Below the pieces are notes generated by a model that had not been told where the DNA came from, made no database searches, and saw only the letters and a list, made by a program, of their open reading frames with translations. From Urechis unicinctus (lineage: Eukaryota; Annelida; Polychaeta; Xenopneusta; Urechidae), in NCBI GenBank assembly GCA_034190875.2, contig CM067358.1:50202343-50266342 (forward strand): a DNA stretch of 64,000 bases, in the 5' to 3' direction. A program made the position numbers and the translations under genes. Of this stretch, positions 1-62,770 are shown one piece after another (position 1 is the first letter of the stretch; each line of letters opens with the position of its first letter).

Positions 1-877
1 ACCTATCAACTATAAATATATTGAAACCATGCATTTTGTTCAGAGTGTAAGGCAACATTGGCACTGCCGCAATGGGTGTTTGGACATTGCCAAATATGCG
101 CCACCGTGGGCGAGTGATTCAATCTTGTGTAGGGAACATAATAATTCAAATGACGTAGGGCATAGTTTTATGTAGGCTATAAATTTAAGCAATGTTATGG
201 ACATTATGGAATCTGTTGTAATAATGTTAGATAAAACTGATGCACATAATGATATCTGAAATGATATCACATCAAGGGCACAGTCAATACCTGTGACTGC
301 ACATATCTGATCACGTGCAAAATAGTACTTGATTCTAAATACAAGCCTCATTGTATGTTTATTGCTTTATTACTCAAAATAATTGTCAGTGACTTTTTTG
401 GTCGTTCTTCGTAATGATATTGAGCAATTTGGTCTGAAGCATTGTTTTATATAACAAACAAAAGTAACTTTCAGAACATGTCTTTCATGTCTAAATTTCG
501 TGTATCGTTACGGTGTGTACATTGGGACATAACCATTTACAGGCACGTATATTGGGCAGAGCCCAAGAGATACCTTATTGTTAATTGAACATCTTACGTG
601 ATCATCTCACTTCGCTTATTTATTTGGTATTAATACTTAACGTTTGTCCGATAAGTGTTAATCTGACTACATTAATTAAATGCTACTTTTCACGATCTGA
701 GCTTGGGCATTTAGATCAGGTCTGAAATTGCTTTGGCGACCACTCATAAATATCATTATGTTGTCGTTTAGGCTAACAAATGGTTGACATTTACTAAATC
801 AGCGATATGTGCATCGAAAGTGACCACACGGGACATGCACACTCTCAAAGTCATTGTCTAAATACTGCCATTGATAA

Positions 878-1066
878 ATGATGCGAGCTTATAATTCTAC
901 TCAATATGCAGTAAACGGTCTATGTGTAAATCTGACTATAAGTAACACACACAAACTTTATCGCCATCTCAACCGCTCTTCTCCCAACTCTCTTTCTGTC
1001 CACCTCGACCTCAACCTCTATTGCAGCATAAGTGCGCACCGGGCAATTACCATGTGCAGCACATAA
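878..1066 (+). pseudogene. Module X frame, copy 1 (pyrimidine-rich, decayed)
   Basis: A 62-codon frame whose protein (e.g. AYNSTQYAVNGLCVNL) matches, in the same frame, those at 53,265, 34,538 and 51,848. The second half is a pyrimidine tract ending in a TTGCAG, which resembles a 3' splice acceptor. I do not recognise a protein family. Comparing the first 40 codons with the 53,265 copy, most base differences change the amino acid, so there is no sign of selection on the protein. A pyrimidine-rich strand rarely forms stop codons, so an open frame here is weak evidence of coding. Confidence 0.2.
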
Positions 1067-1380
1067 AATATCAAAGTGAACTGCTTTTTATCTGCAGCTC
1101 AGTGCTATACCCATGGTTGATTTCACGCAAATGGTATATATAAGAACACCAATGAAACAATCTTGAATGGTGTGATAGGTATTAGGTTGCCTTTGTGTTA
1201 CGTGCACTCAAGCCATGTTTTTCTCACTCTTGCGTTGATTCGGATTATACCGCCCACGACATCCTGTTAGCAGAATGTTGTTCTACCCAGCAAAATGTTA
1301 GTCACTGACGAAACAAGTGCAGAAACAGTTTCCTTGATCATTTTTTTCTGCTTGGCACTACCACCGACAACAATTGTAAT

Positions 1381-1530
1381 TTTTTTCAGACACTCAGCAA
1401 GGTAATGGTAATAATTATTAACTCAGATCAAGTGATCGTTCATTCATGGATTATACACGGGTCCACATAAGGTGCGTGCTTCCCGAACATAACAGCATTA
1501 TCTACAGTTCTTCAAATGCAGATTAAAAGG
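1381..1530 (+). pseudogene. Module W, exon-like, copy 1 (stop-containing)
   Basis: A T-rich run ending in CAG at 1,381-1,389 is followed by ACACTCAGCAAGG, exactly as at 35,119 and 53,746. Read in the frame that starts ACT CAG CAA, this copy has a stop after about nine codons. Further down, the short peptide RCVLPEH is shared with the other copies. Family not recognised. It is best read as a decayed exon or simply a conserved stretch of the repeat. Confidence 0.25.
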
Positions 1531-3375
1531 AAGAAATATGTTTCCCTGATAGCACCATCGCTTGATTCTTTATTCGCCGACGACTTATGTTTACGAACAT
1601 TGTATTTTGCTCGTCGGTTCACGTAGTTAGCAATTTCTATACCACATTCAATTTAACTGATTTCATTTATGTGACAGAAAGTAGCCTGACCTTCAGTTGC
1701 AATTGGCAATAATTATACAGCATGTTGGAACCATATTGTGGTATTTGTACAAATAGCAATCGCATTTAGCTGTTTTGGGTAAGCTTTTTTAGCTCTCTTT
1801 GTAATGAATTACTGCCCTATAACGAAAACAATAGCGGTAGTGCGTAATGTTTATTGTAGAGGATGTTAAAGATAATCTGTCCTCATAATCAACAGATAAA
1901 CAAAGTAGCTGCAAGTTCTAGTGCTAAGCTGTGTACACTGGTGGTGACCTCACACAAATAATCAAAGCAGCAGGGGCTGAATTAAAGGAAAATCGATACG
2001 ACATATAAAGCTTATGGCTCAGCATTTGACATAAACACCGCAATCTTTACAATAGACCTTTTATCTATGCTTACCCTTTCAAGGACTGAAATAACACTCA
2101 AAATACAAGATTCCCTCCGGAAAACAAGATTTTCAAGTAAGCGGAATATGCCTTTACAAAAGTCAGGCGAATTATCAATATGCGGAAAGAACGTTTGTGT
2201 GGAATAAATAAAATTCTAAAGAATATGAAATTGTAATCTGATCAGTGCAAAGTATTCGGTGTCGATTGGTTGCCTTATGTTCGCTAACTGCAGATGGTGG
2301 TGTTACTGTGGTTCCTGGAAGTATGTGGTGCTATACGTACAAAGCCCACCTGCGTCGCTAAACGATTTCAGAGAGAATCAGTTACCGAACCATGAACCAA
2401 TGGACAGAAAGTATCCTTTTATGAGGTGGCCAGACTGACAATGGTTATTTGGCATACCTATTGCGCATAAAAATGTGTTTATATAGGCATTAAAACGGCG
2501 GTCAAATCCACCATGTGTTTAGGGTAAGGGCGCAATGATCTGTTGCAAATTCGTTGGACGTAGCAAAGAAAGGAAACTTATTTATTGCATATGGAATCCT
2601 AATTATCCCTGCAGCTTAGACTCCAATGTACCATACGTATTCACATATCAGTGATACAAATGACAGGCTACATTTGGAGGATATGTTATATCAAGTAGAA
2701 TATTGATTGCGAAAGCAAACCTATCCTAAATATATTATTTGCCGATATATTGTTCACTCACAATGTCCAATAATGGCATCGCATTTCGCCCCGCAGTCAA
2801 ACAATCTCTTGATGTAGATCATATTATCCCAAAAACAAGGTTAAAGTCTGTATTACCACCATCCACCTGTGTGATGATCTAAGTCGGGCGTGTGAATTGC
2901 TCCTAGAAATCATTGCATTCACTAGTTGCAACATATAACATGTTTGGCTGACATAACAGCCATTACACAGAAAAAAATAGTGACCCTGACCGGGGTTGAT
3001 CAACTTAGATCGGTTGCTTACAGTCATTTAAAAATCGAAGGTGTCTCTATGGCTGCAAAAGCATACTTAAGAAGTCCTTCATATTTTTAAACATCAGCGT
3101 AATAATAGCGCAATAGGATATGGCTATATTTGATTGGCCCCGACCTCGTCAGTTCATGTAGAGATGATATCTCCAAGCACGTATTCACTTATTGCGTATC
3201 GCCGGCGACGCAACTGCGTGAAATGACAAACCGGTTATTATATAGCTGGTTCATACTGAGAGAGATGACCATAGGGCATGATGAGTAATATCTGGTTGGT
3301 GTTCAGCCACCGCAAAACCTATACCAGTTACCCCCTTGAAAAGGGACAATGGTTCATAATTTGCAGCTTCTGTAG

Positions 3376-3514
3376 AAATTACATGATTACCAAGGTGTTA
3401 CCTCTGATATGGATACACAGAGCAAGTGAACACACCAGAAGCTGTTATTCATCGCGTACACTCGTGTGCCACTCATCAATGAATCATAAAACTTATCAAA
3501 CTATTTTGTCACTG
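3376..3514 (+). pseudogene. Module R, exon-like, copy 1
   Basis: About 139 bases bounded upstream by a pyrimidine-rich TTCTGTAG (3,368-3,375) and downstream by CTG/GTGAGT (3,512-3,520), which together look like 3' and 5' splice sites. The frame ending in phase 0 at 3,514 reads RTLVCHSSMNHKTYQTILSL. Nearly the same peptide occurs in the same frame at 56,261-56,353 and 45,686-45,778. The product is not recognised. The first part of this copy is frame-shifted against the others (a WCSLHKA-like start is damaged). A decayed exon is the likely reading, but conservation by recent duplication alone cannot be excluded. Confidence 0.35.
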
Positions 3515-4325
3515 GTGAGTATCCAAGTTCCTTCTTCCATTCCTCCTTCAGCGAATAATAGATGATACATTTAATCATCGCGTCATCGAAAGCTCTATTT
3601 ATGTTGACACTTCAGTTCCACGCTTGGCACCACGAAACTACCATACATTTCGGTCAACTTCTTTCAGACTTAGTCTTTGAGTAATATTAGTGTTATATAT
3701 TTACATTAGAAATGACATTGTCATTGGATCGCCGGTAATGTTTCACTTCATTAGGGGATTGCTGCAATAAGCTCGGTATGCTTAAGAAAAAAAAAATTGG
3801 AGAGGATCCCAAATACGACTCATGCTCTGGGTTCTTTGCCACTTGCCTCATCATCCAGGTGTAAAGTATGAGGGATAGTACTCCCTACTTCAGTGAACTT
3901 GTATATGACTTACAAATGCATTTGCTAAATCCATCCATTGATAAATGTAGCTAACATTGAATGCGTAGATGTGACAACAACAAGTGACACACATTCTGAT
4001 TGTAATATCAACAGCTTTATCTCTAACACACTTTCGCTCAACATATATTTCTATCTCTTACCCTGTACCTCAGTTTCGCTTGGCAATATCAATGACAACA
4101 TTCATACGAAGCTTTTTCGATATTGCTTTATATGAGCAGCGGATCAATATATCAGCGGTCGATAACATGCAAAGGGTATATATTTGGACACATAGAATAC
4201 TACACGGAAAACACCTAACTCTGTATAAAGCGTGATTGTCAATAAAGCACCAATGTGTTGACTTCTGTAAGCTCCCTTATATTCACATAATCCTACTGTT
4301 TCCTACCACAAAATGTAAACTACTG

Positions 4326-4430
4326 ATGAAAAATATGCCAAAACAGGTTGCTGTACCATTCTTTACATTGCATTTCTGTGTGCCAATGTTGACATTGAAC
4401 TCAATTCATCAACCAGCCATATTCATGTAA
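4326..4430 (+). pseudogene. Signal-peptide-like module, copy 1
   Basis: The short frame contains FFTLHFCVPMLTLN after a lysine-containing start, a hydrophobic stretch like a secretion signal. Homologous copies lie at 28,669, 47,446 and 57,166. All four can be read in one frame over the hydrophobic part, although single-base indels break the frame near the start of some of them. This copy stops soon after the hydrophobic stretch and has no mature domain. The partner protein is unknown. It is probably a relic. Confidence 0.3.
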
Positions 4431-5131
4431 TTTTTGCAAATGTCTACAATTCTGAATAGCAAACGCACACCAATATTCTACAACAAAGTGATACAACATG
4501 GAGGCAGGTGGTTAAGGCATGGTCCAATCAAAAATAACAAGTCTGTGCATGTCACTGACCAGGAATAACCACCATCACTGTCAGTAATAATTGACATTGG
4601 TTGTAAGTCTATCGTTGAATAACCGTATGTATTGCACCCTCATACCAATCAATACAATGCGGCACTGTCTGATGTTAGTAAAAGGCATATGGATAACACT
4701 TATTTACAAGTCAACCTACAATACAAATTGGCCAAAGTCATCTTCATTCCGCTTCTTGCATGCGGCCGTTTCTTACTACTAACAAAAGTGGAGCAATGTT
4801 ATTCCATTACCATTGTTGTAGCATAAAGCTATGTTTGTTCCCTAACATAGTCTTGCTTTATGTAATTAATTAATGAGGTTGGTTTTAGATTAACTCAGAT
4901 ATCCTGGCAACACAGCTGAATCCGGACTTTGTTTGAGCTACTTTTTCACACAGGAACTGTCAAGCTGCACACGTTCAGATTAATGCAGGAGACTAACTTA
5001 TAATTCCGGAAAAGAGAATGCCACAAAGCGCCATGAGGTGAGAATACACCCAGAACATGAGTAATCAATCTGATACGGTCACGTTTGTATGATTCCTGGG
5101 AGTCATCGATGGAGATGTGTACTCAATGTAA

Positions 5132-5314
5132 ATGCATAAAATGACTACCACAGCCCAATTTCGATGCATACAGACACACAAACAGTATGCATTAACTGAA
5201 CTATTTACCCGCCATGACATTTTGTTTCATCTATTCGAGCTCTTGCATAACGAACACATCTCTGAATACGGTAAGCTGTCTAATGAGGCAATCATTACGA
5301 AATCATGTCGCTGA
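5132..5314 (+). pseudogene. Module V frame, copy 1
   Basis: A frame containing HDILFHLFELLHNEHISEYG followed by GKLSNEAI. The copy near 60,040-60,170 reads the same frame with one stop just before the GKLSNEAI part. Related DNA lies at 34,300, 44,350 and 51,950. A GGTAAGC at about 5,270 could have been a splice donor. No family is recognised and no start is supported. It is treated as part of the repeat. Confidence 0.2.
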
Positions 5315-5775
5315 TATAACTACCCAACCAAGCGAAATATTGCTTGACATATTCGAAACTAATTGTATGACTAGACTTCCCGTCTTTGCTTTTGTCCTCT
5401 GGGCCCAATCAGTTGCGCAATAGGATTATTTAAACTCGATCATATGGTTGATATATCATGCGATATGAGGTACTGATAATTTTATCAAGCATTGCACCGT
5501 ACAAATTTTCTCCATATAGCAAATCAATGTCTCTTACATAGACGAGATTCGAGACATATTTCTGTTGGCCATTACTTTTATGCATTCACAACAACAATAA
5601 TAAATAGAATTAACGCGTTCCTCGGCGTTATAATTTAGACACTTCTTGGATAGCCCATTAAGATAACGATGAAGCCTTCCCGCACTTCCATTCAAACCCT
5701 ATTAGATTAGACATAAAGATTTAACTATTGATACAATGTATCGTTTTCAGAATATTTTTCGACACGTTGGCCTTT

Positions 5776-6620
5776 GTTAACAGCAAATTATATGGAGAAC
5801 CCGAGGTTAAAATATTCTTATGCCTAGGTCACACTCGACAAGTGGGATATTAAGGAGCATTTAGTGCCTTGCCGTAAGAAGCTCGTACGATGATGTGGTT
5901 ACAATTTTTAATATTTCTTAGGTATATCAAAATATTATTAATTCTAGCAAGTGTGCCTTTTTTTAAAGGTGGTAAGAGTTCAGTTATTGTGCCTCCCAAG
6001 TTTTATTGCATAGCTTTAATGCATATATTGTGTACTCCATAATTGGATTGAATTATTTAAAGCATCTTCAGGCATTAGGTGTTTTGTATATAATACTTTT
6101 TTCTTGATAAAAGAAAAACCAAATACCCTGATCAAATCACCGTTTACTACATTGACCTTCAACATACATAATTACGTATAAAACACGCGTAACATGCGGT
6201 AAATTACTATGTTTACACAAATAAAGTCCGTTAGAGCCAAGCGCTCAATATTATTATATTTGATCAAAAAGTCAAAAGTCCTGAGTTAAGTCCTTAATGT
6301 CAATTTAATTCCAGGCCTCTAACGAAACAGTCGCATATAATTCCATATACCCACACGATAAGATTATTTTGTACTAAGCCAGAACCCCAAAGTGCAAAAC
6401 GTCAGCGAGTATAAATACGCAGCAAGGACACAACAAAATGGCCGAATCAAATTGTGAGGAGCCCGTGAGAATACGGTCCTCTTAACGGCCCCACAAAACT
6501 GCCTACGGGCCTTCTACGGGCGTAAACCCGTTAGGAGACCATGTCTGGAAGTAGTTCACGTACTTTTTGGCCGCGGGTCCCTAATCAGAAAAGATGCAAG
6601 TTATCCATTATACACAGTTT
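5776..6620. other. A-specific insertion with GC-rich patch
   Basis: The homologous segments at 60,670 and about 44,800 pass directly from the sequence matching 5,775 to the sequence matching about 6,625, so these roughly 845 bases are extra here. Most is AT-rich, but 6,440-6,590 is sharply richer in G and C and in CG dinucleotides. A hairpin of TTTTTCTT and AAGAAAAA lies near 6,099-6,120. No open frame, terminal inverted repeat or target duplication was found. It could be a non-autonomous mobile element, or DNA lost from the other two copies. Confidence 0.5.
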
Positions 6621-9600
6621 TTGAATTGTTACGCAAATTGTTGACAGTAATACGTAGGTGCATGCGCATCTTTTATATATGCTTGATCTACATTAGGCAC
6701 CTAATGTGCCCCAGCGTGGACGAGTTATCACTAAATGATTCCATCTGGGTCGATAAACTGATTGCTCTGGTGCAATACGGGCAGATGGAAGTGGCGCAGG
6801 TAATGATATTTGGAAATATTTTATTTAAACGGCCCACGTCCCGTGTGTGTATTTCATCGCTCAATGGCTGATTATATATAAGGCCATTGAACATGTTGTA
6901 GTATAACTGTGATATATCTTTATTATATCATTATTCCTGTTCATTTTATCAACCATATCCATGCTAAGATCTCACCTATCCCAACTCATGGTGCTCTTTT
7001 TCTATTCAACAATAGAAGCTAGTACGAAACAATACCACCCTAGTCCCTACCTCAACTCTGCCGTCCATCTCCAACCTCACACTCCAGCGCCTTTCCACTT
7101 GATCACTTCAATTCTGGCCATCTGAGATTACTCTCACTCGCCCCCTCTACTTAACCCCAGCTCTCGTTCATCTATCGTGCACCTTATCACGCAACCATTA
7201 TGCGGGTATCTATAGCAGGATGCAGAGGCTATCCGGCAGTCACCGCGGCTACTTTGTTTGCGAAAGATCTCTGCCAATTTGATTGCCTCAAGCAAAATAC
7301 CAGAGACTGCACATAGCTGTTTAATTAACCATGTGGCCCAACATTTGGTCCTTAATAAAATGCTTCAATTCGTGCTTACGGCGATGTATATGTGAATATT
7401 GATGACCTTGTGGGGATGTTGTTCTGTTCGGCTAGAAACACATTAAATAAAAAAACGGAAATATCTCTGAGTGTTATATCGTGTATATTTGTACAAGGGT
7501 GAATTCATTGGTAACTGAACGTGTCGCGTGATCGGCTCACCATCGTAAATACGTGTCATCCGTAGGTCACTTTTACATCCGACCACGTTTTTGGTTTCGA
7601 GAAATTCGGGTGTTATCGGTTTTGAGCAAAGTTGTACCGCATATGCTGCAGAACATATTTCTTGCTATATTATCGCTAAACGTCACTGACGATGTTAGCT
7701 CTAATACTAATATAATGAGTTCTTCTTGCTTTGCTATTGCAGTTTATGTTGCGAGCCTACAAGGTGGATGTTTATCTGCTATCGCTCGTTAAATCTTGCT
7801 CGTCATGAGCTAAGCTTGAAATCAGATCCGAATTTTCTATATCCACTGCTCATAAAATGACCCTTAAATCGGTAATTCTAACAAAACTGTGCTTTCCAGG
7901 CAGCCACAGTGGACAACACTATTTATAAATGCTTTTTCCATTGCTTGTATTGCAATCTATTAGATGTAGAGATACCATTTGAAGTATTTACAAGGCGTAG
8001 TGTCGTCGTAAAATAGCAATGTCTGTTGAGTCAGGATGGTATTGAATCCCCTATTTATCGATCTGATCCTCAATGTTGACCATGTGTCCCTGTGTTTCGT
8101 CAATGTCTTGATGATTACGGTGTTTTATATATAACTTACCTTGACCTAAAATCATTTTATTTCATTATGTGTAATATCCGGTCTGAATGTGATACCATTG
8201 ATCCACAACCTAATAAGGAGTCAGTCGGTCATTGATAATGCCATGGCAAAACTATTCTGTCAACGGAACAAGATGTTATATGATGTTATCTAAAAATATT
8301 CTTTAAAAATCCGAAAGTTTTTGAGTGAAGTAAATACAATGGATGGGAAATGGAGCAACAGGAAAGCAGTAATGGTCGACCGTGTTTATACCTCATACTT
8401 GATCTGATGCATATAAATGAATTCCTAAATCGTTCCTATTATTATTTGAGCAAGTTCTTACAAAGCGAATAACAGATGAAAGGCAGAAACTGATGCTGGC
8501 GCCTGCCATGTAACGTTATTTGCTGCAATTTAAAATACCAAAATTAACCAACTGAGTGTCAAGTAGGTGGACAATTCGAGGCATGATAAACTATTCACAG
8601 TTATCTACGCAAGTCACCATCTTAAACTACCATTTATATTATATATTGCATTCAGTGGGAAGCAAATGTGATGGATCGGATTGATGCAGTATGTAAGTCT
8701 CACCTTATTATTAAGGCTTGCATTAACTTTGATAACGATTCATAAGAAAGACGCGTCTTTATTTTGATTTATTCATAGATATTGTTAACTTTATTGCTAC
8801 TCAGGTAGTAGTGACTAATTTAGGCGAAATGTCAGCTAATATACAGGTTTGCTATGGCTGTATACAAGGCGTTTGCATTCCATGCGTCACATCATTAACA
8901 TCAGTACATCCATTTAAGATAAACCGAAGGAAATATGCGAACCTGACCATGCTTCCACTTGGTTCTTGTTATTGTCCAACTGCTGTTTCACACTACAAGC
9001 CACGCACATCCACCAATAGCATGTACGATACTATAGGGAGGTGCGCAGCGATAATTGAAGATTCTTTACGCTCGGTAAAACTAATTCATTGTGTTTGGCA
9101 TCCTTAACTTTAGATAAGCCTTGAATATATCTACTCCTTCGGGTGGACTGCGTTTGGTATTTGTCTGATCAGGTGTTATCGAAATTATATTGAAATATTA
9201 TATTGCTCATAATCTAGTAAGAATAAGTGCACAAAACACGTATCATTCCTACTTCCTATACTGCTTCAACGACAAAACCGTAAAACAGAGTTGGCTTTGC
9301 ACTTGCCTGCAATACTAGTGACAAGCTACATTCTGAGGTTTTCAACAGCAAACCGCTTTCTAAACTGTAAATAATTGCTAAACGTGTTGCCCCTTAATCT
9401 AGTCATCAAACACTAGTATCATAAAACACCGCAAAAAGACTTCTTTACGAGCATTTCCAATATAAATCAATCATATGTATTGCTCTTATAAATCCATGCA
9501 TGAACTTGTTTAAATGTAACTTGTTTGGATGATTATCATCGAGTCGGCTCTGATTTTACTAAACACGACAGAATTCATTTAGCATCCTTGACCGTAAGCT

Positions 9601-9700
9601 CGGCATTTAGAGACGATATCCCCGAAAGCACGTGATAACACATATTACGTAAAGTTTGCGACGCAAGTGCACAGTCATAATATGCTGGACACAAAATTTA
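6621..9700. repeat. Diverged array monomer
   Basis: Older copy of the ~8 kb unit. Matching pieces: 6,700-6,960 with 44,910-45,065 (A0), 7,280-7,320 with 24,935-24,965, 7,765-7,850 with 25,408-25,490, 8,930-9,110 with 61,405-61,600, 9,340-9,470 with 61,880-61,980 and 31,290-31,390, and 9,590-9,690 with 62,100-62,180 and 3,140-3,230. The matches are short and broken by indels, so this copy is much older than the B/C pair. No gene is seen. Confidence 0.65.
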
Positions 9701-14729: not shown

Positions 14730-14900
14730 CAGTTTATACATAGGTCATTTAGTAGCTAACCATTGAGAGCAGTTTTTATTTTTATTGCCAAATTAATCTA
14801 ACAACAAGCATACGATGGTTTTTGAGAAAGAATATAGTCCTATTGATATCGAAAAAGCCTACTCAAATAAAGTTCATGACTTTGTCTGGCAGAGTAAATG

Positions 14901-16330: not shown

Positions 16331-16891
16331 GTTCTATCAGACTCTATGAAAGCTGGTTAGTAGATGGCAATATATTACAAAGCACACGATGACGGTGATA
16401 TTGGCCACATGCACCATTAACAGCTTAGAGATAATGACTACCCTTATATTTAGCGGCAGTTTGATCTTACGCAGCCGTACACGTGAGATGGCTTTACTGT
16501 GGTCAATAGGGCATGTTACGTCATGAATATATTTATTGTTTCCGTATAATCTTACAGTTAATCGACGGCTCTTGGCGTACCAAGCTCACACGCACGATGA
16601 TCCTAATGTTGCCCTTTGAGATCAAAGCGTTATAGATGTCCTGGTATTATACCATAAAAAGGTTTAATGCAGCTATAACATGTGATGCCGAGGAGAGCAT
16701 TCAGTAATGTTGATATAGGAACTGTGTGGTAAATTGTAACTGCATTATACTTAGGGTTTCATCTTGTCTATGCAATTGCAACCAATGTTACAGCTAGCCT
16801 TTGCTTACTTAAATAATAAATCCCTTGTAATATATGTAAGACATAGTGTCTCGATTGAATATGATACCTCCTGAAGAACATTCATAATTGA

Positions 16892-17056
<165 letters not shown>

Positions 17057-17091
17057 GGGCTATGCGGGTGTGTATGGGAGGGTGGTTAGAT

Positions 17092-45778: not shown

Positions 45779-45964
45779 GTAGGTATCCAAGTCAGCGCAT
45801 CTATTCCCTTAATTTGAGCGATTAATCGATAATACCTTCAATCTTCTTGTCATCGAAACCTGCCGTGCGCTTGATTGGTCATACTTTCGACATTTCCGTT
45901 CTATGCGTTTCACCATGAATCTACCATGCATTTTGGCAAATGACAAATGCCACCTTGTTTGCCC

Positions 45965-46120
45965 ATCATCTGTCTATCTCTATCTCCCTCTAGCACACAC
46001 GCTCTCGTTCGTTTTCTCATCCTCTCTCTTTCGCTCTCTCACATACACATACACTCTCTTGCTATATCTCCGCTCTCTCTCTCTCTTTCGTTCCCTCTCT
46101 CACTCTCGCGCTCTCTCAAA
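45965..46120 (+). repeat. (CT)-rich microsatellite
   Basis: Counterpart of 27,180-27,366, with fewer CA blocks. Confidence 0.9.
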
Positions 46121-47445: not shown

Positions 47446-47652
47446 ATGAATGCTAAAACCTTTGCTTTATTATTTTCCACTTTGATTTTCAGTGCGTTGA
47501 TGTTGACATTAAACACTGCCATTCATGTACAAGCTATCCCCATGTCATCTGTGCAAATATGTACAATGCGGATGACGGACGGCACTCAGACCCATCCTTC
47601 ATCATGTTGGAGCCTTCATCCAAAGCGATTATATCGCACATCAATGTACTAA
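47446..47652 (+). pseudogene. Signal-peptide-like small frame, best copy
   Basis: Sixty-eight codons from ATG. The start MNAKTFALLFSTLIFSALML is a good signal-peptide pattern: one lysine, then about 20 hydrophobic residues. TLNTAIHVQA follows, with a plausible cleavage site after the final A, and the tail carries ICTMRMTDGTQTHPSSCW and a basic end (HPKRLYR). The tail DNA is almost identical to unit B (one mismatch in 100 bases). In the shared frame the other copies (4,326, 28,669, 57,166) keep the hydrophobic part but not the tail. This is the copy most likely to have coded for a small secreted peptide or a first exon. No family is recognised and no expression evidence exists. Confidence 0.4.
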
Positions 47653-48560
47653 CGATAGTCAGATAACGTGGACGGGAGGCGAGTGGTTACGGATTAGCCC
47701 AATCATTCAATCAATCACAACTCGGTCACCATCAGAAACGACCATAAATACTGCACATAATTGTTGACAAGGGTTGTATGACTTCTCATTGGGTCATTGA
47801 GTGGCACAGATGATTGATCTGAACTGTGCAATATGCATTCTAAGTATGATATCAGCATACTTTTTGGTGCATCTGATACTTTGGGTTATTCGATATACGT
47901 TGCCCATCTCAATCTAGGAGAATACAAATATTCATCAAACTACAATTAATTGTGGCCAACATAGTGCATCTCGAGCCATGAGCTGATTCATGTGAACTAC
48001 CCGGCACGAGAGGCTTATGTTGATGCTACGGCGCTATCACATTTCTCCGACTGAATAACTTTGGCAGATACAGCATTAGTCGTGGCAGATTTAGTATCAT
48101 GTGTTACACTTTACCAAGATAGTATGAAACAAACACTGTGATTCGGAAAATGCAGTCGCAATAGAATTCAGTTGCAGCGTGCTTGGTCTTTGCTTTACAA
48201 ATGACAACCACAATCAGCTGCTTCAGAAGGGCTTACCACCGCGGAGACAATGACGTAATGCATTATGAAGATTGTACTCTTACTTTAAAGCGCACCCTTT
48301 ACTCCTACATCCGCCCCCACCGAATGCCCTCTGTAAAATAGTTAACTGTTTTTCCATTTATGATATTACTGCGATTTCTCCGAAATCGTATCTCCATTGA
48401 TGATTAATAAGATGTAGTTCTGAATGTAGTAAAACGCTGAAGCCGACTGTCATATAAGGTTTTCATTGATTAGCTCCGGCCTATGCCGCAGTTGATAACA
48501 CGCACAAAACCTTCCAGTTTCGCCTACAACCTTTGGCCAGAGGTGAGATCTAAGATGCAG

Positions 48561-49534
48561 CAACTCACGTCCCTTGCAATGACTTTATTACACGCGTTGC
48601 TTTACGATACATATTCATATTGTGTAACTGTGTAAATATACTGCATGCAGTATAATTAGCTCAACACATGAGTAAACAATACATTTATCTTTTGAAACAC
48701 GTAATAATATTTGGCTATGTGTGACGGCAATTATTAACTTAAAATGAGCAACGATATTGATGAGTCATCAGTGTAAAAAAGGCAATATACAGTAGTAAAC
48801 AAAGTTCTTTGCATAATTATTGCTCATGTCAAATACTCCTCATTGTGCGTTTTCTTCCCATATTTTATTGAATTTGTCGTTCTGCAAAGCACCCTTATAT
48901 TCACAAACAATTCATTTCTTTACCAAACAATCTTAGCAACATTGTGTGCTCAGTTGTTTTATTAATATGAAAAACAAAAATATGAAAAACAAACAATAAT
49001 GGCAGCGGGTCCTGACCTAAAGGCATATTATTAAATCATTAAAGCTTAAGGCTCATCCATTGCCTCCATTCCACTGGTGGAGACCATGTTCATACCATTG
49101 TCTCAGCAATGCACCTTGTATCTATACTTATCTCTGTACACACTGCGATGAATGCAATTCAGAAAACGTAATAGGTCAATCCCCATCCAAAGAAATATGC
49201 GATCAATAGACCCCCATAATAAACGACCTTACGTCTGGGATGTTTACCATAAACCATCTACTCTGTCATCTCCTCATTCAAAGATGTTTTTGTGGCTTTT
49301 GATCACTTCCTTGCTTGCTATGAGCACAAGACGTTCAATGGTATCAATTGCAGAATAATGTGACATTATATTTCGGGCATAATAAAATGCATTAACGAAA
49401 CCCGAGAGTTTGGTTAAACCGCCCCAAACAACAACTTCATGCGAAAAAAAGTGTGCTTTTAATAAATGTTTCATATCAGCTATGAAAAAAATATTCCACA
49501 AAAGAGCATCCAAATTACAGCTTTCCTATGTATA
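48561..49534. repeat. Unit C, shortened counterpart of 29.9-31.9 kb
   Basis: 48,705-49,070 matches 30,095-30,230, with extra AT-rich DNA in C. 49,430-49,520 is a decayed module R end like 31,780-31,870. 49,185-49,275 repeats 46,670-46,755 (both with ACGTCTGGGATGTTTACCAT), a short local duplication. No gene. Confidence 0.65.
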
Positions 49535-51435
49535 ACTTACTACAGAAAATTATATTTTACAGGTTTAATCATTTTGTCATCGATAATTGCCTTGTGCTTG
49601 ATGGACGACAGCTGTGACATATCAATTCCATGAGGATCACAGCGAATATACCATGCATCTCCGCAAATTCCATTTAAACCAAGCCCTAAGTCGCAAAGTA
49701 TTGACTCTACCCGGGCTAAAACAGGATTACCTTGTACAATATGAATTCAATATTGAAAACGACATTGTCTTGGAATCGCTTAACTTTTGTCAACACTATT
49801 GTGCTGGCTACAATAAACTCCACATGCTTATGACACTTTTCTAGAGACGTCAACACGTTCCTCTATATCTGGTAATTTGGGCAAACACCTTATAATTTAT
49901 CATCTGTCTGACTATCTGCGAGCTGGCTAGTAGATGACTTCTGGTACATAACTGGTCAACGCCAAATAACAAATCACACGCAATGATCACCGTTATATTG
50001 ACATTGTAATATGAAGAGTAGTAGGAAGTTAAATTTTCTTTGACCGTGTATCGGGGTTTACACAAGAGCAACTTCATTGTTCGCTGAGCATATGTTTTAC
50101 ACTATTACAGTCAAACCAATGGTTGTTTGTGACATGCTCCTCTCGCCTTCTACACATAACAGGTCTTCAGGGCGGATGCGTGCTGAGTTTTAGCATTACA
50201 ATAGAGTCTGATTGACGGGCAATTGTTTTGTGAATGATATGATATGATTGTTGGGGTAATATTTCTTCCATACGTTCACATATGGAATGTTAAATTAAAT
50301 TCAGGTAGGTCATTGTGGACATAATTGGCCACTATGTTAATTTCTGTCTGTATTATTGCCCTAATGCCATCTATTTTACGATGGACTAATTTGCACATCA
50401 GAATAATAACCAAATGCCTTATGAATATGAATGAATGTGAATAAGCGTCATTTGACATATGTCAAAGGGGTTGTAAATTTTACGGACATTGACCCATTAC
50501 TCTAACATGGTAATATCTTGCATCGGCGCAGTTTATGTAAATTTAAGCTTATTTGCAGAGTAAGTAATCATCTGGGCTTAAGATTTTATCATTTGACTTT
50601 GGCAAAGTCTGTTGACCGTTAACCCTAAAAGCTACTGAACATTTACGTCATGTTACAGCGCCATCGCTAAAGGATCCAATGCAAATCAAAACAGCTGTTC
50701 AAGATGGGCTCGCATCTCAATAAATAGAAACAAACGCCAGCATCAATAGCCATTAAGATTGGAAGCAAAGGTTGTAATAACACAATAATGGAGCTATATG
50801 GGAGAACTTGAAACAAACCGATCCGTATCATACTTTTGGCAGCTTGCTCCGAGGCATATATTCATTTCTCGGTAGCATTTATATTATTACGCCATTCAAA
50901 TGCTTTTTGAGAACAATAAGTTGCCAATTAAACGACAAACTTTACAAGAGTTGCCTTATCACTAATCATGGCACCTTTTCCCACTTTTTTTACTGCATTT
51001 TATGTTGCCAAGCAGTGATGCCCCATAACGACTATTTGATCCGACAAAGGTTCCCTATTAAGAACCTCAATGCCGACTAGATATTCAACCACTACCGTGG
51101 AACTATGTATATAGTGCTTGTGACTTATATTAAAGACAGAAGTATGGTTAAGTCACATATCTAAAGTCAGTTACAAACAGTACTCAACACATTATGCCAG
51201 TAGTTAACCAAACTGCACACCCATTATCTCTAGAATATATATTATGTCCGAACTCTTTGGTCATAGCCAGTGGAAGTGCCTAACAATTACAATCGGTGAG
51301 CTCTATTGGTGCCACATGTATTTTACAAAAATCACGAATATTTATAATACATCCAGCTTGTTTTCACTGATCAACCCTGGTGTTTCACAGCATTTCATAC
51401 AGCTGCCATACTCCAGGTCCTCTTAATTACATCGA
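49535..51435. repeat. Unit C, segment 5 (pairs with 31,891-33,600)
   Basis: Close copy of unit B segment 5. No gene is seen; the frames here are interrupted in the partner. Confidence 0.87.
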
Positions 51436-53264
51436 GTAGTTTGTTTGGCTGCATCATTCCATATAAAAAATGTCTTAATGTCATGTATCGTTAGGGTGTT
51501 TACATGGGGAAAAAACTAGTTATAGCCACGTATATTTGGCATAGAACAGGCGTTACCTTATTGTTAATCGAACATCTTGCGTGATCAGCTCACTTTGCTA
51601 ATTTAGTTGGTAATATTACTTAACGTTTGTCAGATAAGTGTTAACCTGCCGTCATTCATTAAATTAAATGCTACTTTTCACGAAATGAGCTTGGTCATTT
51701 AAATCATGTTGTCGTTTAGGCTAACCAATGGGTAATATTTACTATATCAGTCATGTATGCATCTTGTCCAAACAAAATAAAATATGACGATAGTGACCAC
51801 AGAGGACTTATATATCTCTTCAATATGCAGTCGGTCTATGCGTAGATTTGACTAGAAGTAACACACACAAACTGCATCGTTATCTCAACCAATATTTCTC
51901 TAACTCTCTTTCCCTCCACCTCTTCTTCAATGCCTTGTCTATTCTGGCTCTGAGATGTAAACGACATTCCTGGGAGTTTGAAGCTGCCCAATTAGGCAAT
52001 CATAACGCAATCATGTGGCGGATATATTTCCCTAACTACGCAAAAACTTGATCTGAATGTACGGAACTTTTCATCCAAAAAGACTTAACGATATGTCTGG
52101 AGATAATGATAGCTTTTTATAGTAATAAGCTTCAAAATGAGACCAGTTATGATTCAGTTATGTGTTTAATGTATCATGCAATTAGGATAAATGGTTTGAG
52201 ATACAAACAATCACCAAATAAATGTTGGAGAATGATGCAACCTCGACACTCATTTTCTCCTACACAAAAATGACATCTACAAACAGCTTACGTCTAGATA
52301 ATGTGTAACTATCTGTTGCGACCAAGCTCTTACTAATTCCTTCACGCATTTAAGGAGTAATATCTACCACAAAGCCTAGAGCGAGAATATGGACCATTGA
52401 GATGCTAACGATGAAGCCTTCTACCACCACATACAAAACCTGCTGCAATAGGTGTTTGTACATCGCCGAATATGCCAGTCGTGGGCGAGTGATTCAATCT
52501 TGTGTAAGGAACATAATCATTCAAATGACGTAGAGAATAAGCTTATATAGGCTATACATTTAAATAATGTTATGGATATCCCGGGATCTGTTGCAATAAT
52601 GTTAGATTAAAGTGATGCACATAATGATGTCGGAAATGATATCACATCAAGGGCACAGTCAAAACCTGAGACTGCACATTTTCCATTACGTGCAATATAG
52701 TACTTGATTCTCAATATAAGCCTCATTTTATGTTTATTGCAATATTCCGCAAAAGAATTGTCAGTGACTTTTTTTTCTTCTTAATGATATTGTGCGGTTT
52801 GGATGGAAGCATCGTTTTTTATACAAAACGAAAGCAGCTCTCAGAACATGTCTTTAATGCCTAAAATTCGTGCATCGTTACGGTGTGTACATTGAGACAT
52901 AATCATGTATAGACACGTATATTGGGTAAAGCCCAAGTGCTACCTTATTGTTAATTGAACATCTTACGTTATCAGTCCATTACGCTCATTTATTAGGTAT
53001 TATTACTAAACATTTGTGAGATAAGTGATAATATGCCGTCATTCATTCAATAATAATTTTCACGATCTTCTCTTGGGCTTTCAAATCAGGTCTGAAATTG
53101 CTTTGTCGACCACACATGAATATTATATGTTGTCGTTACAAATGGGTAATATTAACTACATCAGTGATGTTTGCATCGTGTCCAATCAAAATATAATTTG
53201 GCGAAAGTGAACACAGGGGACGTGTATACTCACACAATCATTGTCTAAATCCAGCCATTGATAA

Positions 53265-53531
53265 TTGTTGCAAGCTTATAATTCTCCTCAATATTCTGCA
53301 AACGGTCTATGTGTAAATCTAACTAGAAGTAACACACACAAACCGTATCGCTATCTCAACCGCTCTGCCTCCAACTCTCCTTCTCTCCACCTCGTCCACT
53401 TTTTGCAGCATCAATGTGCAACATCTACGGGCAATATCCATATGCAGCGCATAACATATCAAAGTGATCTGCTTTGTATCTGCAGCTCATTGATATGCCC
53501 ATGGTTGATTTCACGCAAAGGGTATATATAA
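53265..53531 (+). pseudogene. Module X frame, copy in unit C
   Basis: An 88-codon frame starting MLQAYNSPQYSANGLCVNLT, near-identical in frame to 878-1,066 over the first 40 codons. It runs into a pyrimidine tract and CACTTTTTGCAG, an acceptor-like site. Same caution as for the other X frames. Confidence 0.2.
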
Positions 53532-53745
53532 CGACCCTAATAAAACAAACTTTTTTGTTACGTGCACTCAATTCATGTTTTTCCACTGTTGCGTTGATTT
53601 GGATAAGACCGCCCACAGCATCTTGTTAGCAGAATGCTGCTCTACCCAGCAAAATCATTTATCATTTTCTATGTTGAATTTTGTCTGCTTAGCACTACCA
53701 TTGACAACGATTGTATCCACACATCTGCTTTTTGAATTTTTTCAG

Positions 53746-53934
53746 ACACTCAGCAAGGTTATGGTTATACTGAATCGTGTTCGTTCATTCATGGGTTATG
53801 CACGGGTGCACAGGAGGTGCGTGCTTCCCGAACATTACAGCATTATCTATCGTTTTATGTATTTGTGGGGTGGTGGGGTGGATACTTATTTTTGGTCGTC
53901 CCAATCTATCCCTCTCAGTATAGAACCGTGCTGA
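53746..53934 (+). pseudogene. Module W, exon-like, copy in unit C
   Basis: Follows TTTTTTCAG ending at 53,745. It opens TQQGYGYTES and is then shifted by a deletion of about 14 bases. In the restored frame it reads RSFMGYARVHRRCVLPEHYS and runs on to a stop at 53,932-53,934, through a G-rich stretch (53,868-53,882) fused from a different part of the repeat. Inactive if it was ever an exon. Confidence 0.3.
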
Positions 53935-54900
53935 TGGTTTGTGAAATTCGATCAATGGAATTGAAATGTGTATTTCCAGCCTTTAGTTGATCACGCGAAG
54001 GTTTACATTTCACTAAGTAGCTTCGACTTGGAAAAGACACCCTCTGTCACGGACAGAAAAGTGTCGACCCTGTTACATCTGAGCCAGACCCTATGAAACA
54101 GCTAATGTGACCAAAACAGTACTGTCGTCATAAAACTCAGGTGCATCGACCTCGGTCTGTGTTAATTGAACCAATAACAAACGCATTCAGCTGTTTCGGG
54201 AGAGCTTATCCGGGCTCTCTTTGCAATGAATCACTCCCCCAATAACGGAGGCAATAGCGGTAGTGAGTAATGTTCATTGTACTCTGCCTATAAAGCGCAT
54301 CCTCAGACTCCATTTCTTCTGCCACGGAACGTCCCAACATTAGGTGGCAAGGGCCATTTTTAGACGTATCTACACTATCATGTTTTCATCGCCAGATCCG
54401 GGCTGATTAGTTCACTATGTGTATGTTTCATTTGCAATGAATTATTGGTATATTCATGTATCGTTTTCATATGACATGATTTGCTAGGTGTATTTCGTAT
54501 GGGGAGTGTTTGGTATAAATAATAACTTTGTAAACCTGTCGTGCTCGAACATAAAATGTCACCCTTTTCCTAGTTTTGTGAAGGAAGAGCCTCACTTGTA
54601 GTATTGAAAAGAATGCACACGTGACTTGCACTTGATCCTGTGTTTACTTCTCAACATTCAGCATCTACGGCATACTGGCCTTTAAATGGACAGAGAGTAT
54701 GATGGAGCGGCACTTACTGCAGCAGTAGATAAGACCTCAATTTTAGCCGAGCTTCATCGTAGTCGGTTCGAAAATCAAGAGCCCTTAGGTAGCAGTAACT
54801 TTTGCAGTGTAATTATTGTACACTCATTATGAGGATCATGTTTAGGCCGATGTGGCGACATGACATTCGAAAATAATGGTTCTGATATCAATCAAGTAAT

Positions 54901-56225
54901 GCACACACGATTGGAAACAATTCCATTAAGAACACACATGCAATTAGAAGAGATGGTCATTTGGTTGCAGCATCGCATGATTTTGCTGTCTTGCAAGATA
55001 AGTAACCTAGTTAGTCATGCAGATATTCCGTCTCCATAAAATGTGCAAAAATTATTAGAGGATGTAAAGTGTTATCCCTTTTCACAATCAACATATAAAC
55101 CAAGCACGCTGCTGCCAGTTTTATGGAAATGCTTTGTACACTGGTGGTGACACCACACAAATAATCATAGCAGCGGGGGCCGAACTAAAGCAAACTTGAT
55201 CAGACCTATAAAGCTATATGGCTCAGCATTTGACATACATTCAACAAACTTTACAATTGACATTGTATATATGCTAACCCCTCCAAGGACTGAAATAATA
55301 AATCTTAGAGAGCGAGATGACATTTGGAAAACAAGAAGGCGGCAATAATGCACTAAACCTTTCCTAAAAAGCGGAATATGTCTTTGCAGAGGTCAGGCAA
55401 AAAATCAATATGCGAAAATGACGTTTTGCCAAAAAAAATTAATTTCTAAGGATAATTAAAAAGTAATCTGATCATTGCAAAGTATTTGGTGTCAACTGGT
55501 TTCCTTATGTACAATAACTGCAGATGGTGGTGTTCCTGGAAGTAGGCGGTGCTATATATGGATGTGCAAAGCCCACTTTGCGTCGCTAAACGATCTCGGA
55601 TAGAATCAGTTTACCTAACCATAAAACCAATGGACAGAAAATTTATGAGGTGGCCAGAATGATACTAGTTATTTGACATACCTATTACGCATATAAAGGT
55701 GTTTACGTAGGCATTAAACGGCAGTCAAATCCACCGTTGGCTAGTAATTTGCTTTGGGTAACGGCGCAATGATCATTGTATATTCGTTGGACATAACACA
55801 GATAGGAAACTCATTTATTGCATTTGGCATCCTAAAAATTACTGTAGCTTAGGATGCAATGTGTCATACGCATGTACATATCCGTTAATCAAATGACAGG
55901 TACCTTTTGAGGATATGTTATATCAAGTAGAATATTGTTTGCTTATATATTGTTTACTAATAATGGCCTCTAATGGCACCGCATTTTGCCCCGCAATCAA
56001 ACTATCTCTTGGTTTAGATCATGTTATCACAAACGAAGATTAAAGTCTTTATTACAAACATCTACCTGTGTGATGATCAAAGTCGGCTGTATGAATTGCG
56101 CTTAGATAGAAATTCAATCACTAATTGTAACATGTAACATGTTTAGCAGACATAACAGCAATAACACAGAATGAAAAAATTGACCCTGACCGAGATTGAT
56201 CAAGTCAGATCTGTTGTTTACCGTC
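54901..56225. repeat. Array DNA matching 1.9-3.0 kb
   Basis: 55,135-56,225 matches 1,925-3,035 closely, e.g. GTACACTGGTGGTGAC in both. 54,901-55,060 has no firm partner. No gene. Confidence 0.8.
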
Positions 56226-56235
56226 ATTTCGAAAT

Positions 56236-56353
56236 GGATAGCTGGTGCTCTTTACACAAAGCAAGTGAACACACCAGAAGCAGTAATTTATCGCATACAC
56301 TCGTGTGCCACTCATCAATGAATCACAACACCTATCAAACTATTTTGTCACTG
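56236..56353 (+). pseudogene. Module R, exon-like, most intact copy
   Basis: From MDSWCSLHKASEHTRSS through HTLVCHSSMNHNTYQTILSL, 39 codons without a stop, ending at CTG/GTGAGT (56,351-56,359), a near-perfect donor. The upstream acceptor is missing because DNA corresponding to 3,030-3,410 is deleted, joining the exon-like part to unrelated repeat DNA. Against the 3,376 copy I count five amino-acid-changing and two silent differences over 31 codons. Three cysteines and several serines, no family recognised. Confidence 0.4.
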
Positions 56354-57400
56354 GTGAGTACCCTAGTTCTTCAGCGAATGATAGATGATATATTGAATCA
56401 TCGTGTCATCGAAAGCTGAATTGTAGTTGACATTTCCACCATGCATTTCGGTCAACAGCCTTCAGACTCAGTCCTTGAACAATATAAGTATTATATATTT
56501 ACATTACAAAAGTCACTTGCTGTTGCATCGCCTGTAATTTGTCACTGCTGTGATGATTGCTGTAATAAGCTCGTTATGCTTATGACATTTCGTTGAGAGG
56601 GTCCTTAATACGTTTCTTGCTCTGGGATCTTTACCACTTGCCTCACCTTCCAGGTGTAAAGTATGAGAGATAGTTCTCTGTTCTTCACTTAACTTGTCAG
56701 CAGGATTCAGTTCACGTCTATTTGCATTGATTGATGATTCTCTTTTCATGAGATTGCTGATTGATGACTAAGTCTGCACAGATGACTTCCCTAACGTTTG
56801 ACATGATAATAGAGAAAGCCGTGTACATTTAGACCTGCTTGAACCAGCTTACTATCGGATTCCTTTAAACGAGATTTGTCTCTTAGCGGTATGGAACCAG
56901 GGGTACGTTCTCGTAATCAGAGTATAACTTGAGCCTACAACGTTCATATGAAGCTCGTTCGATATTGCTTCTTATTAGCAGCTGATCGATAGATCAGTAG
57001 TCGATCTCATAAAAAAAATGTTTATATTTGGACACAGAGAATACTACATAGAACACACCTAGCGCATTGTCAAGCTTTATTAGCAATAAACCGTCATAGT
57101 GTTGACGTGGGTATGCTCCACAATACTCGCATGATTCCCACCACAAAATGTAAGCTACTGGCGAAATGAATGCCAAAACAATTGGCTCTATCATTCTTTA
57201 CATTGCATTTCTGCGTTGACATTGAACTGTGTAATTCATCTACCAGCCATACTGCGAACGCACACCAATATACTAAAAATAGTACGATAACGTGTAGGCA
57301 GGTGGTTATGGCATGGTCCAATCAAGAAATAACAACTATGTGCATGTCACTGACCAGAAACGACCATCAATACTGAAAGTAATGATTAACTTTGGTTGAA
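56354..57400. repeat. Array DNA matching 3.5-4.6 kb
   Basis: Collinear with 3,515-4,600, including module S (56,390-56,455), the pyrimidine-poor relic of module X (56,880-56,960) and the signal-peptide-like module at 57,166. In that module the hydrophobic LALSFFTLHFCV is kept in the shared frame but then lost. Confidence 0.8.
56513..56749 (-). pseudogene. Minus-strand 78-codon hydrophilic frame
   Basis: From ATG at 56,749: RRELNPADKLSEEQRTISHT, then HLEGEASGKDPRARNVLRTL. Balanced, charged composition that looks more protein-like than most frames here. The homologous stretch at 3,720-3,900 reads the same frame (HTLHLDDEASGKEPRA) up to a stop. A third, short match is at 16,275-16,330. NPAD is reminiscent of a motif near the RNase H/integrase part of BEL/Pao retrotransposons, but four residues are not enough to assign it. 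A decayed exon or mobile-element piece. Confidence 0.3.
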
Positions 57401-59539
<2,139 letters not shown>

Positions 59540-60670
59540 TGAATAACCGTTTGCATTTCACGTTCCTACCAATCATTACAATGTGGCAAGGGTTAATGTT
59601 ATTAAAAGGCATTTTGATAACACTCATTGACAACATGAAATGGCCAAAGTAATCTTCATTCCGCTTCTTGCATGCGGTCGTTTCTTACTACCAGCAAAAG
59701 TGAACAAAGCAATTCCATTACCATTTTGTACCACAAAGCTATGTTTTTTCCTAATCATGATCTTATTTTGTGTAAATAATTAATGAGGTTGGTTTTGGCA
59801 ACACAGCTGAAACCGGACTTTGTTTGAGCTACTAGTTCAAGACAGGAACAGTCAAGCAGCACGCGTTCAGATTAATGCAGGAGACTAACTTATAAATCCG
59901 GAAAAGAGAATGCCACAAAGCGCCATGCGGTGATAATACACCCAGAACATGAGTAATCAATCTGATACGGTCACGTTTGTATGATTCCTGGGAGTCATCG
60001 ATTCAGATGTGTATTCAATGTAAATGTATACAATGACTACCACAGCATACACATTAACGGAACCTTTTACCTGGGATGACATTTGCTTTTATATATTCAG
60101 GCTCTCACGTAAAGAACACATCCCTGAATAAGGTAAGCTGTCTAATGAGGCAATTATTACGAAATCATGCCTCTGACATAACTACCCAACCAAGCGAAAA
60201 TTAGTCGACATATTCGAAACTAATTGTCCGAATAGATTTTCTGCCTTTGCTATTCGTCCTCTTAGCCCACTCAGTTGCGCAATAGGACTATTTAAACTCG
60301 ATCATATGGTTAATATATGATGCGATATGAGGTACTGATAATTTCATCAAGCTGGATGTGTTAAACATTCCCAATATCAATACTCGATCATATTGCGCCA
60401 TACGTATTATCTCCCAATAGCAAATCATTGTCTCTTACATAGACGAGATTCAGGACATATTTCTGTTGGCCGTTACTTTTATGCATTCAAAACAGCAATA
60501 ATAAATAGAATTAACGTGTGCCTCAGAGTTATTATTTAGACACTCCATGGATAGCCCATTGCGATAACGATAAAGCTTTCCCGCACTTCCATTCAAACCC
60601 TATTAGATTAGATATAACGAGATAACTATTAATACAATGTATCACTTTCACAATAGTTTTCGACACGTTT
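59540..60670. repeat. Array DNA matching 4.6-5.8 kb
   Basis: A very close copy of 4,615-5,775; for example both carry CCCGCACTTCCATTCAAACC. It includes module V at 60,040-60,170 with a stop. No gene. Confidence 0.9.
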
Positions 60671-62770
60671 GCTGCACTATGATGGCTTTGAATTGGCTTT
60701 GACTTCGGCCTCTAAAATTAGCTTCCATCAATATGTTCAGACGAGGGAGCCTATGTGGTTCGATCCGAGTCAATGAATTGAATAAAATCAATCGACTGAC
60801 ATAGAACAACATACCGTCTTTTCTGTTATTCTTGTCATTTCAACCTGATGGCAGAGTAATTTGGTAAATATAAAAAACAACACAATGATTGACTTTTTGT
60901 GCGCTGCTCTTGTGCAATACACATCATCATTCTCTCGAATTGTTTCACTCGTCAACAAAATGTTCAGTTTTGACAACAAAGAGGGGGTAACTGTTTGATT
61001 TACCATTTTATTTGTATATTTTTGTGCCAATAGAGAAAGAGAAATGTTGTTTCCTTGTCATTCGGGCTCATAATTCAGAGGTATATTTGGTAATGTTGGA
61101 CCCTGCCTTCAAACGTCATTCATTTTCAATTCAATATAGAAAAGCTAATCAGATGAGGGAGAGGTAGGTAGAGAAAAAGATAATGGATCTGATCTAAGCA
61201 GCGTAAAGTCGTAATTCGTGCTTTGGGTTTCTATAGCGAAAGACTTACAAGGAAGGCACATTTGAACTTGGATTTATTCACATGTTCTTATTACTGTTAG
61301 GTAAGGTATCGGAACTAATAAATCACTCCGAACTGGTGCTTACTGATATATTGAGGCTCTATCGGTGCACAGAATTCACACTTTACAACTAATGTACAGT
61401 ATACCTTTCTCGGATTACACGAATATGTAAACCTGATCACACTTTTACTTGGTTCTTCGGTTTTTCTCAATGTTTCATCATCCAAGCCATGCACATACAC
61501 CTACAGTATGTAATTCGCTATAGGTAGGTGCGCAACAAGCACATGCAAATTCTTTGGCCTTAGTACAGGTAAGAAACTCATTTAAAGTGTTTGGTATCAC
61601 AATATTAATTTGTAGCTGATGCTTGAATATATAATTTAATAGCTTTTAGGATCATTGCGGGTATTATACAAAATCGATTTTTAACTGAAAATAATGTATT
61701 TCCTTAAGTACTTTCTAACATTTGGTCAGACAAAACAATCATTATTTCTACTAACATGTTGTCACAGGCATATCAGTGAAGCACTAATCTGTGTTTGATC
61801 ATGATGCGGGTAAAGTTGCATTTATCAGCAATACAAAAGGCAAGCGACTTTTACGGAGAGACTAGTTATAACAAAAGCAAACCGATGTCATATAAATTGC
61901 TTTCCAAACTGTTACTATCTACAATTGCCCATAAGCTATCCATCAAACATTATTTACGTAAAAAAACCCCAGTCAGTCGTTTATATTGATCTTACGAATC
62001 TTAAAAATTAACTTAGATGTTACTTACTTGAATAGTTATCAAAGGCATGGTTCTGATTTTATTAAACTACGACAAAAATCACATCGCAGCGAGCGTCTCG
62101 GCTGTTCATTAAGTGACGATAACTAGAGCACGTAATGTCACATATTACGTAAAGCTTTTGACGTACAGTGTAATACAACACTGGAAATCAAAGGAGGTGT
62201 TCAGTAAGATATATTAATCAATTATTGGTTAGAGATCAATCTCTGTTTATAAAGGTTCTTGCAACAAGGACTTTCGTTCATAAGCTGTACATATTGTCAC
62301 CATCACATGAAAACCAAGACTTGTCTTCATACGAAATATATCAGCACCAATAAGCCAACGCGCTCATGCGTGAGACATTAATTAACGTAGCATAGCAACT
62401 ATCAACACATTTTGTTCACTGGTTATCATCCACACTACGGCTTTCCCGTTTCCCAACTTGTTTGAGAAAATTATGCACAACAGCTTTAATTCTTTCGTCA
62501 TCAAACGATGCCTCTTGCTTCATGGGCTACAATTTTGACCTTTCCGCTCAATTTCCGTAAATTCATTTTTAAACCTAGACCCTCCGCAAAACTCATGGCT
62601 TGTTTCCAGAATTTTGACAGGTTAACTTTCTACACCGACAGGAATCGCATAATCATATTTCAAACGGAATAATCTCGGAAACGCCTAATGTTTGTCAACA
62701 GTAATGTGTTGTGAGGGTATTTCTTGTTTTTTCTTCTGTGGTGGCCTGAGCAGTATACTCAGATATATCA
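60671..62770. repeat. Last, diverged monomer of the array
   Basis: A0 at 60,690-60,800, then 61,405-61,600 (matching 8,930-9,110), 61,880-61,980, 62,100-62,180, a decayed module R at 62,350-62,440, module S at 62,490-62,580, and 62,650-62,745 (matching 49,740-49,805). Similarity to any other copy ends at about 62,770. No gene. Confidence 0.65.

Follow-up and report, generated by a model that had tools for sequence, protein, structure and literature searches.

What kind of element repeats itself over tens of kilobases without carrying a gene? The question is raised by a 64,000-nucleotide stretch of the genome of the annelid Urechis unicinctus (C17:50202343-50266342, C17 being contig CM067358.1; hereafter the window), which a preliminary description, made from the letters alone, had presented as a ten-copy nested tandem array with a period of about 8 kb, built around a module termed A0. 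Comparison of the window with itself, with its flanks and with the 1.19 Gb assembly (926 contigs) establishes that a nested array of long period does exist and that it exceeds the window in extent. The locus is best described, with a probability of roughly 0.8, as a single-locus, gene-free megasatellite with higher-order repeats that arose by repeated tandem duplication and near-neutral drift.

When the window is compared with itself by BLAST after masking of simple repeats, 112 direct matches (39,566 aligned bp) and no inverted ones appear, versus none in either orientation for all five second-order Markov control sequences, so that the off-diagonal lines proposed as a check on the array are indeed present. 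The share of the window inside a self-match is 67% for the window alone and 92% when flanks are added, and at 50.14-50.33 Mb the direct matches add up to 298,140 bp versus 151 bp of inverted matches, with 89.5% of the interval being array. Strong diagonals at offsets of 17.2-21 kb place 16.4-37.0 kb (block B) onto 37.4-54.9 kb (block C) at 73-92% identity. Others, at 52.4-54.9 kb, place 0.06-5.8 kb (in block A) onto 52.4-60.7 kb (in block D) at 68-80% identity and are continued by 8.9-9.7 kb onto 61.4-62.2 kb at just 60%. Beneath these block copies, an older layer at 58-74% identity appears as weaker diagonals at about 5-14 kb. Diagonals had been anticipated at 7-9 and 18-21 kb; the longer spacing is strongly represented and the shorter one falls within the weaker layer, while the nested, long-period and head-to-tail character of the array is borne out by the block pairs B-C and A-D. 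Linking the matches yields module families that recur in the order A0, K, T, R, S, M1, T', P.

The copies differ widely in age. Ungapped identities show three modes, at about 63-71%, 81-87% and 96% (matches of at least 150 bp, shorter ones being omitted from the histogram), and copying therefore came in waves. Most copies are 57-89% identical, whereas those at 50.377, 50.411 and 51.340 Mb agree for the most part at 94-98% along their long matches, less well in places. In the K, T' and M1 trees, pairs and triplets of differing age are nested, and P-module identity is 0.87 between blocks A and D and 0.83 between B and C versus 0.56-0.57 across these pairs. In a higher-order repeat, corresponding monomers of different blocks resemble each other more than do the diverged monomers of one block. 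The P module and the trees display this; the K copies are near-equidistant (0.78-0.84) and show no such pattern. Deletions and insertions are common to sister blocks. The transition/transversion ratio is low between old copies (1091/1416 = 0.77 in long window matches) and amounts to 364/382 between young copies.

A search of 279.5 kb (250 kb at 50.08-50.33 Mb, including the window, and three pieces totalling 29.5 kb) with six module profiles produced 159 matches, all on the forward strand (A0 27, M1 31, T 28, T' 27, K 29, P 17); since T and T' share part of their profiles, the number of independent sites is lower. The number of copies thus exceeds ten. The 8 kb period holds as an order of magnitude and not as a fixed period, the A0 spacing having a median of 5.8 kb and a range of 1.9-28.7 kb (21 spacings, 50.14-50.33 Mb), the M1 spacing a median of 5.1 kb and the modules overall medians of 4.5-7.9 kb. 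To assess the ten A0 sites named at the outset, a profile was made from eight copies and each was omitted in turn, giving nine models. Seven sites (0.1, 6.7, 22.6, 24.7, 41.3, 44.9 and 52.5 kb) are firm, being recovered when omitted (E 1e-8 to 3e-33), several of them with a close sister remaining in the model. Two are weak: the 60.7 kb site is not recovered when omitted, and the 14.9 kb site is absent at E<=1e-3 from the 279.5 kb search. The site at 33.3 kb is wrong, matching in 0 of 9 models. Comparison with 51.9-53.3 kb suggests that A0 and K have been deleted near 34.6 kb in block B relative to block C. Two sequence strings are weak markers when used alone: GTGGGCGAG occurs three times on the forward strand and once on the reverse, and GATTCAATCTTGG is found five times at no more than two mismatches versus 2.2 expected.

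Table 1. Array blocks and module copies in the window (window positions; E, expectation value, 'left-out' when the copy was omitted from the model)
Feature	Position	Strand	Evidence
Array part within window	1..62711	+	112 direct/0 inverted self-matches; 92% matched with flanks
Block A, partner of block D	64..9669	+	collinear gapped matches, offsets 52.4-54.9 kb, 60-80%
Block B, copy of block C	16377..37027	+	collinear matches, offsets 17.2-21 kb, 73-92% identity
Block C, copy of block B	37408..54894	+	collinear matches, offsets 17.2-21 kb, 73-92% identity
Block D, overlaps end of C, partner of A	52440..62170	+	collinear gapped matches, 60-80%
A0 copy	65..272	+	left-out E 2e-25
A0 copy	6670..6826	+	left-out E 1e-8
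Marginal A0 copy	14882..14999	+	never in a model; E 1.5e-5 to 0.13 in 6 of 9 models, unmatched in 3 of 9
A0 copy	22575..22766	+	left-out E 1e-17
A0 copy, 3' half better preserved	24685..24919	+	left-out E 7e-12
A0 copy	41291..41460	+	left-out E 1.5e-16
A0 copy	44880..45152	+	left-out E 3e-33
A0 copy	52441..52647	+	left-out E 3e-13
A0 copy by position	60695..60915	+	left-out E 2.4; collinear between P (60.1 kb) and M1 (62.0 kb)
M1 module	3136..3669	+	window profile matches E 2e-29 to 2e-135; alignment
M1, other window copies	starts near 9.5, 15.7, 26.4, 31.4, 45.6, 49.4, 56.2, 62.0 kb	+	
K module	406..1039	+	strong copies 33.6, 51.4, 52.8 kb
K module, weak copies	3.9, 7.8, 15.6, 23.4, 25.4, 34.6 kb		
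T-R module	945..1858	+	copies 34635-35910, 53332-54281
P module	5199..5560	+	copies near 34.3, 44.4, 51.9, 60.1 kb
N module	42783..43253	+	copies at 24220-24688 and ~10.7 kb
DNA unrelated to array	62712..64000	.	no array match; array resumes to the right beyond the window

The array is confined to one chromosome-scale contig. It was read as continuous sequence over 50.14-50.33 Mb, matches extend as far as 50.42 Mb, and another block occupies 51.335-51.361 Mb. With regard to the sex- or B-chromosome block suggested in the preliminary description, the array lies inside a contig of 71.7 Mb and so is not a small unplaced block. Module searches of the assembly returned matches on C17 in 22 of 22 and 10 of 10 cases, and in another search in 43 of 47, the other four being about 75-90 bp long. 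Among the best 40 candidates of another search, which give a lower bound, those that look like array map to C17, and the remainder lie within a CT-rich stretch. In a further search, likewise scored for 40 candidates, the matches to other contigs (at least 27 of the 60 listed) share a single dispersed stretch of about 110 bp (39191-39300).

A second dispersed stretch within the units, of about 95 bp (6484-6577), resembles short sequences on many contigs, the matches outside the array having 77-90% DNA identity among the best 40 of 111 candidates; in a protein search it matches a run with a period of about 1.44 kb on contig C675. Units of gene-free megasatellites, in the sense of PMC2588610, hold interspersed transposable elements; for the two dispersed stretches here no element family was recognized, and no Pfam transposon domain was found. 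The reverse-strand frame 18360-18707 may resemble the end of a long interspersed nuclear element reverse transcriptase open reading frame (ORF) and has no database match. Two patches of about 85 bp (28770-28857 and 47560-47645) are 98% identical between blocks B and C versus 87% around them and are absent from the copies at 4.1 and 57.0 kb. Runs of about 80-100 GT, AT or CT units occupy 16892-17054, 25990-26188 and 58701-58866. The segment at the right end of the window, which continues past the window's edge, looks like an insertion, as the array resumes beyond it, and its ORF 63636-63998 (reverse strand) has no Pfam match.

Tandem multi-kilobase units in one orientation resemble gene clusters. 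A decayed gene cluster, one of the possibilities named in the preliminary description, would mean that each unit formerly held a gene whose exons have since degenerated. No gene was found in the ORFs and stretches examined, in agreement with its statement that no intact gene is present. Pfam searches of 150 of the 276 window ORFs (best E 0.0042) and of 103 of the 310 flank ORFs (at least 70 codons, low-complexity ORFs left out; best E 0.0012) produced isolated weak matches only, none below E 0.001. Stop-to-stop ORFs of at least 55 codons number 295 (276 after low-complexity filtering) versus 236 in first-order Markov sequence; at 80, 90 and 100 codons the filtered counts of 50, 24 and 18 match the null (51, 26 and 14). 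There is no array-wide codon signal across 619 matches and 2,059 open blocks (mean third-position z 0.049, standard deviation 0.90); the corresponding phase totals (9667, 9778 and 9972) are descriptive because open blocks overlap.

Two stretches offer some support for former coding. The best candidate is module N: three of five close copies are open for 68-87 codons with a third-position excess (z 2.1-2.7), but gaps shift the frame in the remaining two, distant copies lose it, and the N-module ORF was rejected as a gene. Young copies L029 and L030 share a 113-codon frame, but this stretch is mostly missing from L031, the young block at C17:51335001-51345000, and substitutions in the youngest copies examined (2-6% apart) are spread evenly over the phases. 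DNA searches gave no parent sequence on other contigs, short dispersed bits aside. With no coding remnant in the window or the scanned flank ORFs, descent from a decayed gene cluster is quite improbable. A GC-rich ORF at 6458-6868 was likewise rejected as a coding exon: its best Pfam match has E 0.13, it has no PDB match, about 95 bp of it is the short dispersed element noted above, and its last part matches array copies, one of which (50.423 Mb) has six stops.

Transcription rather than sequence might instead be what matters, as in a long non-coding RNA or a source of PIWI-interacting RNAs. The single orientation throughout, TATA-like and splice-like strings seen by eye to recur in T-R and M1 copies, and mild rate variation in these modules are consistent with such a unit, which nevertheless appears unlikely. 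The orientation is equally expected under tandem duplication. Rfam gave no match at the gathering score and one at E 2, far below the cut-off; ARAGORN, in its bacterial setting, found no RNA gene; and the M1 fold is unsupported, with only six predicted pairs and one two-sided change.

Nor is conservation clustered after correction for multiple tests. Parsimony changes per site are near Poisson in all 12 modules (variance/mean 0.65-1.08; 4-21 copies), and at homologous columns a difference between A and D is independent of one between B and C (odds ratio 1.30, p 0.14). Conservation of M1 and T-R, suspected at first, did not stand up as clustered constraint after 12 tests, but mild rate variation remains. 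These patterns make strong constraint improbable where modules are well sampled, and constraint of a weak or local kind may be present.

The preferred interpretation, a near-neutrally drifting megasatellite, can be put as a series of steps. A non-coding unit of about 5-8 kb would have been tandemly duplicated long ago. At least two later waves would then have copied, head to tail, whole blocks of 17-21 kb or larger, each made up of several units that had already diverged. Since then the copies would have degraded through point changes, small gaps, insertions and larger deletions, near-neutrally and without homogenization. The probable mechanism is unequal crossing-over of copies that had paired out of register, with several units copied per event, and the array would have no sequence-dependent function.

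Several observations weigh against this account. Identity is unrelated to distance (Spearman 0.07, p 0.17, n = 413 matches), whereas simple neighbour-by-neighbour crossing-over predicts identity that falls with distance; copying was therefore by blocks and not between neighbours alone. A young block, mostly 94-97% identical to 50.37-50.41 Mb, is found 0.93 Mb away from the main array. On the left side, at 50.08-50.14 Mb, related matches occur in both orientations, and part of the flank sequence reads N. Traces of uneven substitution also count on this side: M1 alone has an excess of same-column differences (odds ratio 2.5, p 0.044), T-R has a 20-column slow patch (p 0.010, the sole p < 0.05 among 12 tests), rate variation passes the 5% cut in 9 of 60 tiles versus 3 of 72 null simulations (60 of 149 tiles were kept, those with fewer than six copies being left out), and 6 of 19 long matches have a window variance more than twice binomial. 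The rate test has low power on short trees, simulated 60-base elements being caught in 12-79% of cases depending on the tree.

Given the lack of a distance effect and the distant young block, replication-based copying or an independent relocation may have contributed, unless 51.34 Mb is misassembled. The block there could be a true relocation or a misplacement. Its high identity to 50.37-50.41 Mb would fit the latter, but for the array as a whole an assembly artefact of unmerged haplotypes or misjoined copies is scarcely credible, most copies being nested and diverged far beyond haplotype difference. A more tentative alternative, which appears doubtful, is a long-lived duplication hot spot at which non-coding DNA was re-amplified in separate bursts, without homogenization or sequence selection. 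If so, the young wave would have seeded the block about 0.9 Mb away, the array would be a layered record of bursts, and the driver might be replication-based amplification or a transmission advantage rather than ordinary crossing-over between neighbours.

The class of the megasatellite favoured here follows from its organization. Its tandem units exceed 2 kb and have no detected gene. Classical satellite DNA, with its short and homogenized units, does not fit, as Tandem Repeats Finder (periods to 500) reports simple repeats only and copies are mostly 60-87% identical. A tandem gene cluster would have one gene or pseudogene per unit, and none was found in the ORFs and stretches examined. Recent segmental duplications have an identity of 90% or more; most matches fall below this value and a minority, such as L029-L031, reach it. 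The earlier verdict against both satellite DNA and an ordinary segmental duplication is fair, although the kind itself is already known from human gene-free megasatellites, as discussed below. Most tandem arrays are homogenized and their history is erased. Here at least three age layers are preserved in one direction at one locus, so that the order and size of duplications can be read and ideas of how long arrays grow can be put to the test. Since Tandem Repeats Finder found simple repeats only in the window, seemingly unique intergenic DNA can be an old tandem array overlooked by standard repeat finders. A literature search by array features, not by species, returned no obvious description of the present array.

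Among known systems, DXZ4 (PMC3218863) is likewise not obviously coding, at a single locus and of kilobase scale, but it is reported to be an uninterrupted 3 kb array with a CTCF role. A comparable chromatin boundary, or a centromere-type array, in which repeat organization is what matters, would account for a kilobase-scale tandem array at a single locus; it is very improbable here, as a CTCF-like motif is not enriched (15 versus 17.2 expected) and the units are diverged rather than homogenized. Alpha-satellite higher-order repeats share the two-level organization of diverged monomers and more similar blocks, but their monomers are 171 bp, centromeric and homogenized, whereas those of the present array exceed that length about 30-45 times and have escaped homogenization. 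The human macrosatellites TAF11-Like, SST1, PRR20 and ZAV are similar in their large tandem units at few loci; PMC3018141 presents them as polymorphic and expressed, whereas the present array is known from one assembly and its copies are much more diverged. The closest likeness is to the human gene-free megasatellites, in which, according to PMC2588610, 3.5 kb long terminal repeat (LTR; MaLR) units form six-monomer higher-order repeats. That account describes the same kilobase-size non-coding tandem units, higher-order repeats of several diverged monomers and later insertions copied along with the blocks, and likewise proposes unequal crossing-over. It places the human arrays on about 12 chromosomes and in one LTR class, whereas the Urechis array occupies one contig, consists mostly of sequence without an assigned identity, and has longer units, three age layers and oldest monomers that are about 60-70% alike.

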